Positions 3,947 through 47,937 of a stretch of DNA of 64,000 bases are shown here, one piece after another (the stretch's first letter is position 1; each line of letters starts with the position of its first letter). The stretch is taken from positions 186,001-250,000 of the forward strand of contig JAJFVF010000002.1 in assembly GCA_021371935.1 (NCBI GenBank). Direction: 5' to 3'. Under the pieces are notes generated by a model. The model ran no database searches. It worked only from the letters and a program-made list of their open reading frames with translations, and was not told the origin of the DNA. Source of the stretch: a bacterium. GTDB taxonomy: Bacteria > Armatimonadota > UBA5829. Made by a program: the position numbers and the translations under genes.

Positions 3947-4176
3947 AAAAAGCCCCGCCATCCCACTACAAGGACGACAGGACTCGTGATACCACCTTGA
4001 TTTCTCTGCTTAAATCAAGCAAAGCTCATGTTGCTGTAACGGGCACACCCGGCAGGTTCTAATAGGAATAAATCCGTTCTTCCCGCGGCAAGCGAGGCGA
4101 CGTTCGAGCGGCACCTGCCGGAAGCTTTCACCGACCGCTTCCTCTCTACGGACATTTACCGCCTACTCTTCCCCGC
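3947..4176 (-). promoter_or_regulatory. T-box riboswitch, valine specifier (GUC)
   Basis: On the minus strand the leader shows the T-box landmarks in order: stem I with AGAGUAGGCGG, AGAGAGGAAGC and the GGUGAAAGCUUCC hairpin; a specifier loop GAAC-GUC-GCC; the T-box sequence AAGGTGGTATCACGAG (3984-3999); and an intrinsic terminator made of a 10-bp stem (arms 3972-3981 and 3954-3963) followed by TTTTT. GUC codes valine, and the UGGU bulge would pair with the ACCA end expected for tRNA-Val, which agrees with valS downstream. The T-box core has U in place of one usual C (GGUAUCACG instead of GGUACCACG). Confidence 0.92.
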
Positions 4177-4304
4177 GCCTATATGTTCAATTATTGCTCT
4201 TATTCTAGCGCGTTTAGGCTGACTTGTAAAGCTGACGCAATTCGTACATCACCAATGCATTCGTGGTATCATAATATAAATGTTCACAAAGATAACGAGG
4301 CAAA

Positions 4305-6027: not shown

Positions 6028-8284
6028 TCTCAATCACACCCGCAGAGCAGTCCAGAGTCACATGATCGCCGTTTTGAAGCGCGTCCACCACCCCTTTGCA
6101 TCCAATTATGGACGGAACACCATATGTTCTCATCACCGATTCGACTCCCGGCTGCAGGCATTCTCCCTGAGCAATAAACCCTCCAGCGGTTGCAAGGAAT
6201 GGAGTCCATGCCAAGGTTGGCGATTCAACCACAAGAACCTCACCGTGCTCAATCTCGCCCGCATCTTCAACACTTAGTGCTTTTCGCACTCTGCCGGTAA
6301 CAGAACCAGAACAAATGCTTGTTCCAGTAAATACCGATGCAAGAGATGGAGCCGTTTCCACGTCATCATGCAGAATATCAGGGGGACTGAGCCGGTCTTC
6401 AAGCCAGATGTCATGCTTACGCTGAGCCACAAGTGCTGCCATTTCTTTCTCGCGGTTTGCACCTTGCTGTTCGATAAGTTCGGCAATTTCTGATAGGATG
6501 AGATAAAATACATCATGCTTGTCTGCCATCACATTTGCATTTTTCAGTTTGCGTCCAAGCTCGATAATCGTAAGTCTTAACTGGGCTTCCGCTTTTGCAA
6601 GCGCGATTTCGCACTCATTTCCGAGTGAAAGCCACCCTCTGGTGAGGCGGAGAGTTTTTTCAAAACCAGCCTTTTTAGCCGCCCCTATCACTTTTTGAGC
6701 CTCCGCTACGGCTAGACGGTAATCATCTTCCGTTGCACAATGAAGTGTTATCAGGCTGGCGCAATCCTGTCGACGGCTCATGGCCGCAATCATTCTGAAG
6801 ACTGTATCGCCGTTTTCGATCCAACTCTCCCAGGAAGCGATGTCATATGCATCATCAACACAAGTGAATGAGTGGCCATATTCCAGGGCAAATCTCTCGA
6901 CATCTGCTTTGTAGCTCTTGCGCCACGATGGATCATCCAACTTGCCGGACTTCTGAGCAAAGCAGAACTGATCTGCAAGCTCCTGCAGATGCGCATCACG
7001 CATTATCGCATCTCCCGGCAGCCATCCTAACAATCTGCTAAATGTGTCTATATCGCATTGATCGATTATTTGGCGAAGATGCTCAACAAACAGATATCCA
7101 TAGTGCCTTGCGTCTGACATCCACTTTAGCAGGCTGCTCACGTCACCGGCCAGCTTTTGGGCACGTGCGATCAAATCAGTGTCGCCTGAGAAGTCAAGTC
7201 TCTTTAGCGACTTGCCTGTTTTGGTCTGCCAGTCTTCAAGCAGCCTGAAACCCTCAGCCATCTGTCTGCCGGCATTGTCTAGTCCACAGCGCTGCTGCTC
7301 GTAGACATATCCATTGACAACACGGACTTGCCCCGACGCCAACAGGCTCTGTCTTGAAAAGTTCGACACAGGAAATGATGCCAGTCTTTTCCACACACCA
7401 TCATGCTCATCATCGCCATTGTCGGGAAAGTATGGAGGAATATTGCTCATCGGTCTTGCCTGCAAGAACCACAGCTGGTCCAGGTCGTATGTCCATTCAA
7501 GCTCAACAGAAGAGCCAAGTGTCTTTTCTACTACAATTGCCTTTTCAGCAAGCAGGGTTATGACACTCTCTCCAGGTGAGTTTGCCAGGTCATCACCACT
7601 TGCCACGGCGGACGGATTGTGTAAATCCACTGTGAAACACGAAAGGTCGGCTGCATCTGCGGATGATGAGCAGGAAATTATGATACGGTTTCGGTTGCCG
7701 GTCACCAGGTCTGCAGTCAGGGCAGTGCCTGACCATTTGCCTTCCATCATCTGCTGGATGATTATCGCCATAGCCGGCTCGGATGTTATGGCGTGGCGCG
7801 CTCGATATGCGGCTGCCTTACCACTCCACAGCGATGCCCATACACGCTTGATCGCCGCTTTGAGAGCATCCTGGCCTGATACGTTCAAAATGCTTTCGTA
7901 TGCGCCGGGGAAACTTACCTGCGCCTGACTATCCTCGATTGCCGAAGACCTGACTGCGACCACAGGATTCTCAAAACCCAGTTGCAGCGACAAGCGCTGA
8001 TAAGCATCCGCAATCGCCTGCCACACATCTGCCGGGATTTCGGCGGAGATGATGGCCTCGCGGATCTTTTCCCTGTCTTCAGCTTCGGCCAGGGTGGAGG
8101 CAATTTCACGTGCGCCGCTTGCCCATAGGTGGCAGCGATATGCATCGGCGCTGATGACAAACCCTCTCGGGACGACAAAATGCGCTGCGATCAGCCTGGA
8201 TAAGTCGGTCGCTTTCCTGCCTGCCCTGCGCAGAGGTCCTGCTTCAACGAGCGGTATTATCAGTGAAACATTGGATGATGTCAT
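5993..8284 (-). CDS. PEP synthase-like / phosphotransferase-like protein lacking the catalytic His
   Basis: 763 residues from ATG 8284 (a TTG at 8326 that overlaps the upstream stop is an alternative). Residues about 5-290 form the PEP/pyruvate-binding ATP-grasp half: VPRGFVISADAY, VAVRSSAIEDSQAQVSFPGAYE, the YRARHA segment, and an ending WFLQARPM. A long helical linker follows. The C-terminal swivelling domain (about 665-755) shows ESPTLAWTPFLATAGG and TYGVPSIIGCKGVV, but where PEP synthases and rifampin phosphotransferases have GGxxSHG the protein reads GECLQPG (Gln711-Pro712). The phosphorylated His is therefore absent. The product may be an inactive or repurposed relative. It forms a unit with the amidase gene upstream. 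Confidence 0.8.
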   Translation of the reverse strand: MTSSNVSLIIPLVEAGPLRRAGRKATDLSRLIAAHFVVPRGFVISADAYRCHLWASGAREIASTLAEAEDREKIREAIISAEIPADVWQAIADAYQRLSLQLGFENPVVAVRSSAIEDSQAQVSFPGAYESILNVSGQDALKAAIKRVWASLWSGKAAAYRARHAITSEPAMAIIIQQMMEGKWSGTALTADLVTGNRNRIIISCSSSADAADLSCFTVDLHNPSAVASGDDLANSPGESVITLLAEKAIVVEKTLGSSVELEWTYDLDQLWFLQARPMSNIPPYFPDNGDDEHDGVWKRLASFPVSNFSRQSLLASGQVRVVNGYVYEQQRCGLDNAGRQMAEGFRLLEDWQTKTGKSLKRLDFSGDTDLIARAQKLAGDVSSLLKWMSDARHYGYLFVEHLRQIIDQCDIDTFSRLLGWLPGDAIMRDAHLQELADQFCFAQKSGKLDDPSWRKSYKADVERFALEYGHSFTCVDDAYDIASWESWIENGDTVFRMIAAMSRRQDCASLITLHCATEDDYRLAVAEAQKVIGAAKKAGFEKTLRLTRGWLSLGNECEIALAKAEAQLRLTIIELGRKLKNANVMADKHDVFYLILSEIAELIEQQGANREKEMAALVAQRKHDIWLEDRLSPPDILHDDVETAPSLASVFTGTSICSGSVTGRVRKALSVEDAGEIEHGEVLVVESPTLAWTPFLATAGGFIAQGECLQPGVESVMRTYGVPSIIGCKGVVDALQNGDHVTLDCSAGVIEISTRSSAARSV

Positions 8285-32948: not shown

Positions 32949-33104
32949 GTGATCCCCCTACTGCTTCGGAGATCACCTTAGTCAGACACACAAAAAGGCA
33001 AACCCGAAGCTTGGAAACGGCAGCCCGGCCGACTTGTTCCACATGCGCGGAATGTAGTCCCGAAGGCTTTGCGTCCCCTTCTTTCGAAGAGTTTGCCCTT
33101 ATCG
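32949..33104 (-). promoter_or_regulatory. c-di-GMP-I (GEMM-I) riboswitch with ribosome-site-sequestering platform
   Basis: On the minus strand the aptamer (about 33104-33019) has GGGCAAAC, a CUUC-GAAA-GAAG tetraloop hairpin, the invariant GGGGACGCAAAGCCUUCGGG and the closing CCGGGCUGCCG: the complete GEMM-I consensus. Downstream, GUGAUCUCC pairs with GGGGAUCAC (32976-32949) in a 9-bp stem that covers the ribosome binding site of flgM. A competing helix GCUUCGG (33010-33004) with CCGAAGC (32969-32963) overlaps that stem. This points to translational control; which state binds ligand is inferred only. Confidence 0.92.
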
Positions 33105-33126
33105 CCTATATTATCTTCAATATTGA

Positions 33127-42762: not shown

Positions 42763-42791
42763 TTGACTGCATAATTAACCTGTTCTATAAT
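42763..42791 (+). promoter_or_regulatory. Sigma-70-type promoter of the CBM9-like gene
   Basis: TTGACT and TATAAT separated by 17 bp. A start near 42798 would give a leader of about 114 nt that contains the conserved leader element. Confidence 0.7.
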
Positions 42792-42830
42792 CACTACAAA
42801 TACTGGATGGCTTTAAGAATTGCGGCATGA

Positions 42831-42911
42831 ACGCTCTCGCGACTGTTTCGCAGCGCTGTGTGTTCGCCACGAAGGGAACGAAAATGCCCGCATTTTCAAA
42901 GGAGGAGATTA
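42831..42911 (+). ncRNA. Conserved 5' leader element, copy A
   Basis: CTCTCGCGACTGTTTCGCAG, then GCTGTGTGTTCGCCACGAAGG and AAAATGCCCGCATTTT, ending at CAAAGGAGG. About 80% identical over some 75 nt to the leader of the HIT gene (46488-46580, minus). It contains a possible UUUCG/CGAAG stem enclosing GUG-UUCGC-CAC, and an AAAAUG/CAUUUU hairpin two nucleotides before AAGGAGG. No known riboswitch class was recognised. Confidence 0.6.
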
Positions 42912-44252
42912 ATGCGAAACAAGATTACGGCTCTGACTATTATGGTCCTGTTTGGCTTAGCGATTGGTCAGATTTTTGCTGACGAGGCAATGAGCGCAGC
43001 GCCTGCGGAGGGTGCAAATGTGACGGAGTTTAAATATGATATTCCTGCAATTGATCCCGATACACAAATCTTCAGGCGAACGCCAACAATCGATGGAGTT
43101 GTAGATGACGGTGAATGGGATGCTTATTATACCTTTTCTGTGCAGGGTTGGAATGCCACCACATTTGCTGACTGGGACTCAAATTACTTATATGCGGCGG
43201 TAAAATCGAGCAGACCTTTGGACTTTTTGGTTGTGGTTGATTGTTACAACGATGGCTGGTTCCATGGCGAAGACAATTTCGAGTTTAGGACTATACGTAG
43301 CTCTGACGAAAGCATGAATGTTGCAGTCAGTAGGTATGAATCTCGAAATACTAAATTGCCCATAGCAGTGCCGGTTTCTTCTCAAGATGCCTCAATGGTT
43401 GAAGCGAAATGCAGCCAGTCCAGTGGCTCGTATATCATAGAGATGAGGGTTCCGGTCAAGCTCCTTAATGGCTTTAGGCCGAATGTGGGCAACAATATAG
43501 GTTTACAGCTGGCTGTGAACGCTGGTTCGGACGAAACAGGCTGGGTCCCAAATAATGAGCTTGGTGACACGAAAGAATGCACATTAGTGTCTAAGAAAAT
43601 AGCATCTCTTAAACCATTGCAATTGGGTTTTGACTTGCGGGATAGCGTAATTGCGCGCGGTGACGATATCGTGGCTAAATTCCATTTAACTAATAATGGC
43701 AATGAGACGGTTGATGTGAAGAGCTTCATTATTGCTGGTGAGGGTAGGTCTGGGAAATATCTTAGCAGTGAGATGGTTCGTGTTGATAATTTGCCGCCAG
43801 GCAAACATATAGCGAATGAGTATAGGACTAAGCTATTGTCGGGAATGAGCGTTGGAAGCTGGGCATTGGGAGCTGAAGTTAAATCCGGCAATGGAAGGCT
43901 GGGGAGTGCTCTCGTAAGTTTTGATGTTGTCGAACCGTTTGATATCGACTTAAAGCTTCCCAATAAGGATGTGCGTGCTGACGTAAAGGATGTGACTGTT
44001 GGAGTAAAAATACACAACAACCGCCGTGAGGGAATATCAGGCGTCGCAAAAATCGTTTTCCCAACCGGATGGGAAATGTGGAGAGACATTGACACGAGAG
44101 ATTTTAGAGCAGCGGCTCGTAGTGATGCTGGGGTTTCATTCAAGGCAAAACCACCGCTCGGAGCGATCGGTGATGTGCCGGTAAAAGTGGTGGTCGAATG
44201 CAATGGTGAGACAAAAACAACAGATGGGACTATTAGAATAGTTAATCCATAG
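42912..44252 (+). CDS. Secreted protein with CBM9-like N-terminal domain
   Basis: 446 residues from ATG 42912, behind AAAGGAGGAG. Signal peptide residues 1-22 (LTIMVLFGLAIGQIFA). Residues about 45-230 resemble a carbohydrate-binding family 9 / DOMON-type sandwich (RRTPTIDGVVDDGEWDAYYT, YLYAAVKSSRPLD, DNFEFRTI). The rest has two or three Ig-like or NEW3-type repeats (AKFHLTNNGNETVDV; KDVTVGVKIHNNRREGISG). It has no catalytic motif, so it may be a surface glycan-binding or structural protein. It has its own promoter, leader element and terminator. Confidence 0.8.
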   Translation: MRNKITALTIMVLFGLAIGQIFADEAMSAAPAEGANVTEFKYDIPAIDPDTQIFRRTPTIDGVVDDGEWDAYYTFSVQGWNATTFADWDSNYLYAAVKSSRPLDFLVVVDCYNDGWFHGEDNFEFRTIRSSDESMNVAVSRYESRNTKLPIAVPVSSQDASMVEAKCSQSSGSYIIEMRVPVKLLNGFRPNVGNNIGLQLAVNAGSDETGWVPNNELGDTKECTLVSKKIASLKPLQLGFDLRDSVIARGDDIVAKFHLTNNGNETVDVKSFIIAGEGRSGKYLSSEMVRVDNLPPGKHIANEYRTKLLSGMSVGSWALGAEVKSGNGRLGSALVSFDVVEPFDIDLKLPNKDVRADVKDVTVGVKIHNNRREGISGVAKIVFPTGWEMWRDIDTRDFRAAARSDAGVSFKAKPPLGAIGDVPVKVVVECNGETKTTDGTIRIVNP

Positions 44253-46143: not shown

Positions 46144-46488
46144 CTATCCGGGTGGCCATCCAAGTTTTCTTCCGCCGAGCAGATGAAAATGTATATGCCA
46201 GACAGATTGGCCAGCGCCTTCATTGCAATTGGTGACTATCCTGTATCCATCGTCAGAAACGCCGCGCTCAGACGCAATTTTATTTGCGACCACAAGAATG
46301 TGCCCCATTAAACACGCGTCCTCGCCCTCGAAAACATCAGAAATACGCGCAATGTGTTTTTTGGGGATAACCAGAACATGGACAGGCGCCTGCGGATTAA
46401 GATCGTCAAATGCGACGACACTATCGTCTTCATAGACCAGTTTGCCCATCTCCTTGTTTGCAATTTTGCAGAAAATGCAATCACTCAT
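46144..46488 (-). CDS. HIT family (histidine triad) nucleotide-binding protein
   Basis: 114 residues from ATG 46488, behind AAAGGAGG at 8 nt. It begins MSDCIFCKIANKEMGKLVYE and contains the triad WHIHFHLLGG. Closest in layout to the HinT group, purine nucleoside phosphoramidases that act in the cytoplasm. It is preceded by the conserved leader element also found at 42831, and lies downstream of mtaB. Confidence 0.94.
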   Translation of the reverse strand: MSDCIFCKIANKEMGKLVYEDDSVVAFDDLNPQAPVHVLVIPKKHIARISDVFEGEDACLMGHILVVANKIASERGVSDDGYRIVTNCNEGAGQSVWHIHFHLLGGRKLGWPPG

Positions 46489-46580
46489 TCCTCTCACCTC
46501 CTTTGAAAATGCAGTGCATTTTTGTCTCCTTCGTGGCGATCACAACAGCACTGCGAAGCAGCCGCGAGACTGTCCATTCC
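46489..46580 (-). ncRNA. Conserved 5' leader element, copy B
   Basis: On the minus strand: AGTCTCGCGGCTGCTTCGCA, then GTGCTGTTGTGATCGCCACG, AAGGAGACAAAAATGCACTG and CATTTTCAAAGGAGG. Stems GUCUC/GAGAC, CUUCG/CGAAG, GUG-AUCGC-CAC and AAAAUGC-ACU-GCAUUUU can form. It fills almost the whole gap between the mtaB stop and the HIT start. Confidence 0.6.
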
Positions 46581-46598
46581 ACGCATCCTGAGACACAT

Positions 46599-47906
46599 TT
46601 AGCCGAGACTGCCGACCACACATCCATCACTGTCAGTATCAACAATCTTTACTTTCACTATATTACCCTTGAGAAAAATATCACCTGTAAACGTGACACT
46701 TATATAGTTGCCAGTAAATCCAACGAGCCTCGCCTGCTCTCCATCATACCTATTATCGTAACTGCTTACAATTGGAGCACCCGTTTCGACCAGCACATCC
46801 ATGAACTTGCCCACATGAGCAACCGCGAATTTGTGCATCGTGCTCCTGCCGATCTCCGTCAATTTCTCAGCGCGTGCTTTTCTTGTATCACTATCTATCT
46901 GGTCGGGCATATTTGCTGCTTTTGTTCCGGGTCTGCGAGAATATCTAAACACATGGAGCCTTGAGAAACCGACTGCATCGATCAAAGAACATGTGTTTGC
47001 AAATTCGTCATCACTCTCACCAGGAAACCCTACGATGACATCGGTTGTGATGCCTATATCCTCAATTCGTTCTCGCACACGAGTGATGATTTGTTTATAT
47101 TCATCCGCATCATATGGACGGTTCATACATGTCAAAACACGGCTGTCGCCGCTCTGCAGCGGAATATGAAGGTGCTTGCAGACCTTGGGATGATTCATAA
47201 CGTCCAAAAGATGGTCGTTTACCTCCCAGGGCTCTATTGAGCTGAGCCTTATCCTCTCGATCCCGTCTATGTCGGCTGCGCGTATTATAAGCTCAGGGAG
47301 GTTCAAACCTTTGTCTTCATATGAGCCTAACCTGATCCCGGCAAGCACGATCTCCTTATATCCGAAATCTGCCAGGGACTTCAACTCATCGATTACATCT
47401 CCAACCTGCCTCGACGTCATGCCCACCCTGGCATATGGTATCACGCAGTATGAACAAAAATTATCGCAGCCGTCCTGGACTTTCACCACGGCTCTGGTCC
47501 GACTTCGCGGACGTGGATGCAATTCACTTTCAGATGCTGATTTCTCAGAAATTCCGAAATGTGCCGCCAGCCGTTCAGGGATGTCATTTTTGTCCTTGTG
47601 CGCGACAATCAGGTCGACACCCTCTATAGAGCTTATCTTTGCGGGTCCGAGTTCAGCATAACACCCCGCGACCACTACAAAAGCTTCGGGATTCGATCTG
47701 AGAGCTTTGCGAACAGCAGCACGCGACTTAGCATCCGCAACTGCAGTTACACTGCAAGTGTTAATAATATAAGCATCCGCACGCGCAGAAAACGGGACTG
47801 TGGTGAATCCCATGCTTTCCAGCGACTGGCGTATCTTCTCTGTTTCATATTGATTGACCTTGCAGCCAAGTGTATGGTAAGCAATTGTAGGCATATCTGT
47901 AGTCAT
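46599..47906 (-). CDS. mtaB: tRNA (N6-threonylcarbamoyladenosine(37)-C2)-methylthiotransferase MtaB
   Basis: 435 residues from ATG 47906 (ATG 47894 or TTG 47933 also possible). N-terminal UPF0004 domain with three Cys (TLGCKVNQYE, NTCSVT, AGCYAE), radical SAM motif CDNFCSYCVIPYARV, and a C-terminal TRAM-like domain (RLVGFTGNYISVTFTG). The TLGCKVN start and SSIEPWEV place it in the MtaB branch and not MiaB. It adds a methylthio group to t6A37 in ANN-decoding tRNAs. Confidence 0.92.
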   Translation of the reverse strand: MTTDMPTIAYHTLGCKVNQYETEKIRQSLESMGFTTVPFSARADAYIINTCSVTAVADAKSRAAVRKALRSNPEAFVVVAGCYAELGPAKISSIEGVDLIVAHKDKNDIPERLAAHFGISEKSASESELHPRPRSRTRAVVKVQDGCDNFCSYCVIPYARVGMTSRQVGDVIDELKSLADFGYKEIVLAGIRLGSYEDKGLNLPELIIRAADIDGIERIRLSSIEPWEVNDHLLDVMNHPKVCKHLHIPLQSGDSRVLTCMNRPYDADEYKQIITRVRERIEDIGITTDVIVGFPGESDDEFANTCSLIDAVGFSRLHVFRYSRRPGTKAANMPDQIDSDTRKARAEKLTEIGRSTMHKFAVAHVGKFMDVLVETGAPIVSSYDNRYDGEQARLVGFTGNYISVTFTGDIFLKGNIVKVKIVDTDSDGCVVGSLG

Positions 47907-47937
47907 GGTAGCATCAGCATGAAGTGAGGTCAATTAT

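Follow-up and report, generated by a model that had tools for sequence, protein, structure and literature searches.

A palindromic repeat of about 90 nt in front of unrelated genes in Armatimonadota, very probably a mobile element with a preference for Shine-Dalgarno-like sites

Introduction

Mobile elements of compact genomes persist by using harmless landing sites, such as tRNA genes, terminators, REPs and attTn7. MITEs, Correia, ERIC, RUP and BOX elements are small mobile repeats that lie near genes and may alter their expression. REP/REPIN sequences, together with RAYT (TnpAREP), are short, palindromic, dispersed, non-autonomous and extragenic, and they form genome-specific subfamilies. 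PATEs, which are miniature elements derived from IS200/IS605, have a hairpin at each end, lack inverted repeats and insert 3' of a short fixed target that their right end resembles. Riboswitches and ribosomal-protein leaders (Rfam Cis-reg) are covarying structures directly 5' of a Shine-Dalgarno (SD) sequence. In the IS200/IS605 and REP systems a guide tetranucleotide stands at the foot of the hairpin, which is GTAG or GTGG in REPs (PMC6006769, PMC8266576).

Here, a stretch of 64 kb from an Armatimonadota genome (the window) was analyzed, in which an earlier note had described alike leaders of two genes as a candidate cis-regulatory RNA. The repeat found there shares the features listed above with REP/REPINs, and RAYT-like genes occur in its own genus, but it is about 90 nt long, has two unlike hairpins and lacks a GTAG/GTGG foot (PMC6006769, PMC8266576). 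Further differences are its location in AGG/SD sites, its single orientation, its copy number of 1 to about 20, and that it does not flank RAYT genes. The features of PATEs are also shared, but its target, AGG(R)G, resembles an SD, and neither a parent IS with the ends of the repeat nor recognisable guide tetranucleotides were found. With MITEs, Correia, ERIC, RUP and BOX it has in common that it is small, mobile and near genes; unlike them, it has neither terminal inverted repeats nor a TA-type target duplication, and it carries or restores a functional SD. In contrast to the Rfam leaders, it has no Rfam match, has spread by insertion, shows no gene theme, and its structure decays in single copies. 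Non-autonomous palindromic mobile elements are an already known kind, and the landing site is the notable part: an SD that is used as landing site and restored by the element would be a new safe-haven strategy. In the open-access literature no SD-targeting repeat was found to be described.

Results and Discussion

Structure of the two copies in the window

A covariance model matched the window exactly twice, at copy A and copy B (E 3e-21 and 4e-18), which are 3.7 kb apart, about 90 nt long each, share a common fold and end with their 3' end at an SD (Table 1). The similarity of the two leaders is real and far beyond chance, as a 72-nt query recovered 12 copies in the genome (G000), 11 of them near-full and one partial, with E-values from 1e-32 to 8e-7. 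The earlier note had placed the leaders correctly, but its bounds were slightly short on the 5' side: the repeat extends about 16 nt (A) and about 9 nt (B) beyond them, to the AAG or AGG that precedes 'AATYG'. It was also right that the two downstream genes are unrelated.

Table 1. Coordinates of the two copies, their parts and the neighbouring genes in the window
Feature	Position	Strand	Remark
Promoter of the CBM9-like gene, sigma-70-type	42763..42791	+	TTGACT-17 nt-TATAAT
Copy A, full repeat	42815-42905	+	model match
AAG, putative decayed 5' AGG flank of copy A (target half or duplicated AGG)	42815..42817	+	judged from empty sites
Copy A, element body (P1, linker, P2, terminal AAGG)	42818..42902	+	
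Copy A, P1 hairpin	42820..42872	+	outer helix, 2-nt bulge, UCUCGC/GCUGUY internal loop, apical hairpin
Copy A, P2, A/T-rich hairpin GAAAATGC CC GCATTTTC	42880..42897	+	
Restored SD of copy A (AGGAGG, 3' end)	42900..42905	+	
Gene of CBM9-like secreted protein, downstream of copy A	42912..44252	+	weak Pfam hit
Gene of HIT protein, downstream of copy B	46144..46488	-	
Copy B, full repeat	46497-46589	-	model match; 5' AGG flank 46589-46587 included
SD of copy B (AGGAGG, 3' end)	46497..46502	-	
tRNA methylthiotransferase-like gene, upstream of copy B	46599..47933	-	by sequence

The genome consensus is AGG/AATCGTGGCATGAACACTCTCGCGACTGCTCCGCAGCGYTGTTGTGTTCGCCACGAAGGGAACGAAAATGCTCCGCATTTTCGAAGG/AGG (slashes mark the ends of the repeat). 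It folds into two hairpins. In the first, P1, UCGUGGC-(AU bulge)-GAACAC pairs with GUGUUC-GCCACGA, followed by a conserved internal loop (UCUCGC/GCUGUY) and an apical hairpin. The second, P2, is the A/T-rich hairpin CGAAAAUGC/GCAUUUUCG directly before the SD, and had already been noticed as an A/T hairpin in front of the ribosome site. The stem UUUCG/CGAAG that had also been proposed is not part of the fold; the main helix is P1, the 5' arm of which lies partly outside the interval considered before. Short deletion derivatives with perfect stems exist (L012, L051, L181), which could come from slippage at hairpins.

Copies A and B are among the most decayed copies of the genome, with two and six broken pairs, respectively. 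Copy B separates the HIT gene from the methylthiotransferase-like gene, and because the stop codon of the latter lies about 10 nt before it, it is situated inside an apparent operon and is not a promoter-proximal leader.

The short distance between A and B would suggest that one leader was simply copied to a neighbouring gene by segmental duplication, but ten more copies exist, nine of them on other contigs, and A is no closer to B than either is to the genome consensus. This census refutes a recent duplication as the null explanation, and we regard the duplication reading as practically negligible.

As in the earlier note, no known riboswitch class was recognised: when the window, the region (with a relaxed threshold) and eight loci of other subfamilies were scanned, no Rfam family matched the element, at either the gathering or the relaxed threshold. 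Elsewhere in the window, a T-box leader (3967-4182, minus strand; RF00230, 94.7 bits) and a c-di-GMP-I-GGC riboswitch aptamer (33015-33106, minus strand; RF03167, 61.5 bits) match Rfam.

Distribution and genomic context

Within the genus, model R1 detected 12 copies in G000, three in G001 (Armatimonadetes bacterium UBA5829), 15 in G003, where model R2 raised the number to about 20, and five in G004; no convincing copy was found in G002, the fourth congener. Two species of another genus (G008 and G009) have one copy each, before rpmB, and G244, from another family of the class, has 17 copies of its own subfamily. A scan of 291 genomes of the phylum found the element in seven and none in 284, with filters so strict that weak copies could escape. 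The E-values of models R1-R3 are rough, and matches below about 30 bits are regarded as uncertain (L042, L047, L048, L052, L165, L183, L197 and L198), of which L183, L197 and L198 are still counted among the 59 copies. The subfamilies are genome-specific, with G000, G003, G004 and G244 types.

One copy was found in a phage, at 7487-7585 (minus strand) of L080, a 65-kb IMG/VR contig (IMGVR_UViG_3300027863_001757). It is part of the structural operon of a contractile-tailed phage, where it separates two structural genes and occupies the SD of a small gene; sheath, capsid and recombinase genes of the contig were recognised by sequence. Such a phage is a possible vehicle of the element between hosts. 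Viral contigs scanned with three further patterns contained the element only in this phage.

The genes that follow the copies include lysS, nuoE, rplE, serA, fabZ, greA, groEL, selD, DegT and the CBM9 and HIT genes, and have no common function. Some copies stand within operons, others separate convergent genes (L008, L044), and one is that of the phage. Both observations argue against a new class of cis-regulatory RNA, i.e., a riboswitch or protein-responsive leader that would control translation via the SD-adjacent hairpin, since a coherent regulon is not seen. The genes lysS, rplE, rplS and groEL are usually essential in bacteria, and it is in front of such genes that a mobile repeat stands here.

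The copy upstream of selD in G003 (L060 1501-1635, minus strand; G003:C23:8540-8674, minus strand) has an apical domain that is about 40 nt longer. The beginning of this selD contains an in-frame TGA in place of the Cys of relatives (HGAG-TGA-ACK), and this codon likely encodes selenocysteine. A tandem is present at L070 (1528-1660, minus strand), where a full copy is directly preceded by a solo P2 hairpin relic (GAGCGAAAATGCTCTGCATTTTCTAGGG); the AGG end of a first insertion might have served as the target of a second.

Empty sites in relatives

Orthologues of the downstream genes were retrieved from congeners with chimeric protein queries, and the upstream regions were compared. The empty orthologous sites have an intact SD (AGGAGG) and no insert. 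The nuoE site is empty in four congeners and reads gatAGGAGGtaa, versus gttAGG/AATCG...CGAAGG/AGGtaag in the occupied genome; with longer flanks, the empty site is ...cccgatAGGAGGtaaag-TTG (G004) and the occupied site is ...cccgttAGG/AATCG...TTTTCGAAGG/AGGtaag. The rplE site is occupied in G001 and empty in three congeners, i.e., gttAGGGAGT versus gttAGG/TATCG...CAAGG/GAGT, or, with longer flanks, ...gagagttAGGGAGTaactt-ATG (G000, G004) versus ...gagagttAGG/TATCG...TTTTCAAGG/GAGTtagcat-ATG (G001). For greA the site is empty in three congeners and a fourth has a deleted relic. This case and the sites of lysS, L004, a PRPP-synthase-like gene, L010, L003, serA, rplS and HIT agree, with some left flanks less alignable. 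One copy of G001 (L046) is inserted a few nucleotides 5' of the SD and not within it.

At the site of copy A, four congeners have the promoter (TTGAC..CTATAATCACTACAAAT) and the SD and no element; the match to the promoter is less exact in G003. The promoter in front of copy A had correctly been described as good; it lies outside the repeat and belongs to the CBM9-like gene, not to the element.

As most sites are occupied in one genome only, insertion and not loss is the simplest history. Conservation of copies before orthologous genes was seen only for DegT, occupied in both G000 and G004, with the G000 copy lacking the apical part, and for rpmB (G008/G009). The lineage-specific insertions and the empty sites of close relatives are strong evidence against a cis-regulatory RNA class. 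Both copies in the window are very probably insertions of a non-autonomous palindromic mobile repeat of about 90 nt with a layout like that of REP and IS200/IS605 elements.

Junctions and target preference

In an alignment of 49 copies the information falls to about zero just outside the AGG on the left and the AGGAG on the right, so that the boundaries are sharp. On the left an AGG directly precedes the element, and the AAGG at its right terminus re-forms the SD. Integration would thus occur directly 3' of AGG in AGGAGG-like, mostly SD, sequences, and the terminal AAGG, or equivalently a 3-nt AGG duplication, would restore the interrupted SD with its proper spacing to the start codon. Because the SD is left intact, the downstream gene is still translatable, and with the spacing preserved the insertion is probably near-neutral for translation.

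The AGG on both sides can also be read as a 3-bp target-site duplication, as expected for an ordinary MITE moved by a DDE-type transposase. Terminal inverted repeats are, however, absent from the ends of the element, which has two internal hairpins and unlike ends instead, and this reading is unlikely. Duplication of the 3-bp AGG by another enzyme gives the identical sequence outcome and fits the same data.

In 45 of the 59 copies, the start codon of an open frame follows 2-15 nt after the end of the repeat, and selD with its in-frame TGA is a 46th case. The baseline was drawn from the single 64-kb window, where, at non-coding or SD positions, 65 of 213 AGG and 19 of 35 AGGRG are SD-positioned. 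Against AGG the excess of the copies at SD positions is strong (p = 4e-10), and against AGGRG it is modest (p = 0.04), which leaves recognition of the SD as such unproven; targeting of AGGRG plus a survival bias may be the alternative to SD targeting. A preferential targeting of AGG(R)G/SD is the best explanation. Only tentatively, and with clearly less than even confidence, do we propose a mobile element that specifically recognises SD sequences, uses them as safe haven and rebuilds the SD when it inserts, is carried between genomes by phages, and is moved by an undescribed enzyme that possibly acts on a folded single strand and is guided to AGGAGG.

Covariation and decay of the stems

Further copies before other genes with covarying stems had been named in advance as support for an RNA class, and both were found. 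Double changes occur at 21 of the 29 pairs in 34 copies, and 120 cells were counted versus 36 +/- 4 in shuffles, a count that leans towards the model owing to the use of a model-fitted alignment (A5); in slid controls it collapses. The covarying two-hairpin structure, its conserved internal loop and its usual position upstream of an SD are what a cis-regulatory RNA would show. However, the double changes mostly separate subfamilies, as exemplified by the P1 arms UCGUGGC-GAACAC (G000/G004), UCGCCGAUGAACCU (G003) and UCGCCGGUGAGACU (G244), and the covariation is that between subfamilies of a mobile repeat. Within G000, none of the 33 paired-site substitutions is compensatory, and older copies have broken pairs. 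G.T pairs (33) are not in excess over A.C mismatches (28), and this speaks against the resident copies being selected as RNA. As single copies decay uncompensated, the structure would serve mobility rather than regulation.

Also in favour of a regulatory RNA are the orthologous rpmB leaders of the two species of another genus (L040 1501-1593 and L041 1501-1592, both minus strand), in which most of the pairing is kept and the differences are mostly pairing-compatible; these copies are possibly a local exaptation before a ribosomal-protein gene. Overall, with lineage-specific insertions, empty sites, no gene theme and uncompensated decay, the cis-regulatory class proposed by the earlier note is unsupported and very improbable. 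A mobile repeat can thus yield strong covariation and a near-constant position before the SD, which is a warning for the discovery of RNA classes.

Search for a mobilising enzyme

For the mobile repeat, the folded structure is presumably read by a mobilising enzyme acting in trans, most likely as single-stranded DNA, by analogy to HUH/Y1 transposases with REP or IS200/IS605 ends. A narrower form of this explanation holds that the repeat is moved specifically by a Y1 (HUH) transposase, either IS200/IS605-like or RAYT-like, and would then be a PATE/REP-like derivative. The hairpin near each end, the lack of terminal inverted repeats, the insertion 3' of a short fixed AGG, the 3' terminus AAGG that resembles the target and the single orientation relative to the target all fit. 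Y1 genes are also present in G000, G001, G003, G004 and G244 and absent from G002, which is without the element. But they occur in element-free genomes as well, G008 and G009 have the element and no Y1 hit, no Y1 locus has element-like ends, no GTAG/GTGG guide is seen at the P1 foot, and the target directly abuts the hairpin without an obvious guide tetranucleotide. This enzyme class is thus quite possible, somewhat short of an even chance.

The search for a mobilising enzyme or parent element, which covered the Y1 genes and longer forms bearing P1, found none. A P1-only model for a longer autonomous version returned known copies only, with no gene between P1 and P2, and no copy was seen in the act of moving. 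The Y1/RAYT genes of these genomes are not favoured as mobiliser, since their own hairpins flank them, element-like ends are absent and, across the genomes compared, their presence does not track that of the element.

Five RAYT-like Y1 transposase genes (L153, L156, L158, L159 and L164) each lie between palindromic repeats of their own, and this Armatimonadota genus seems to have a REP/RAYT system.
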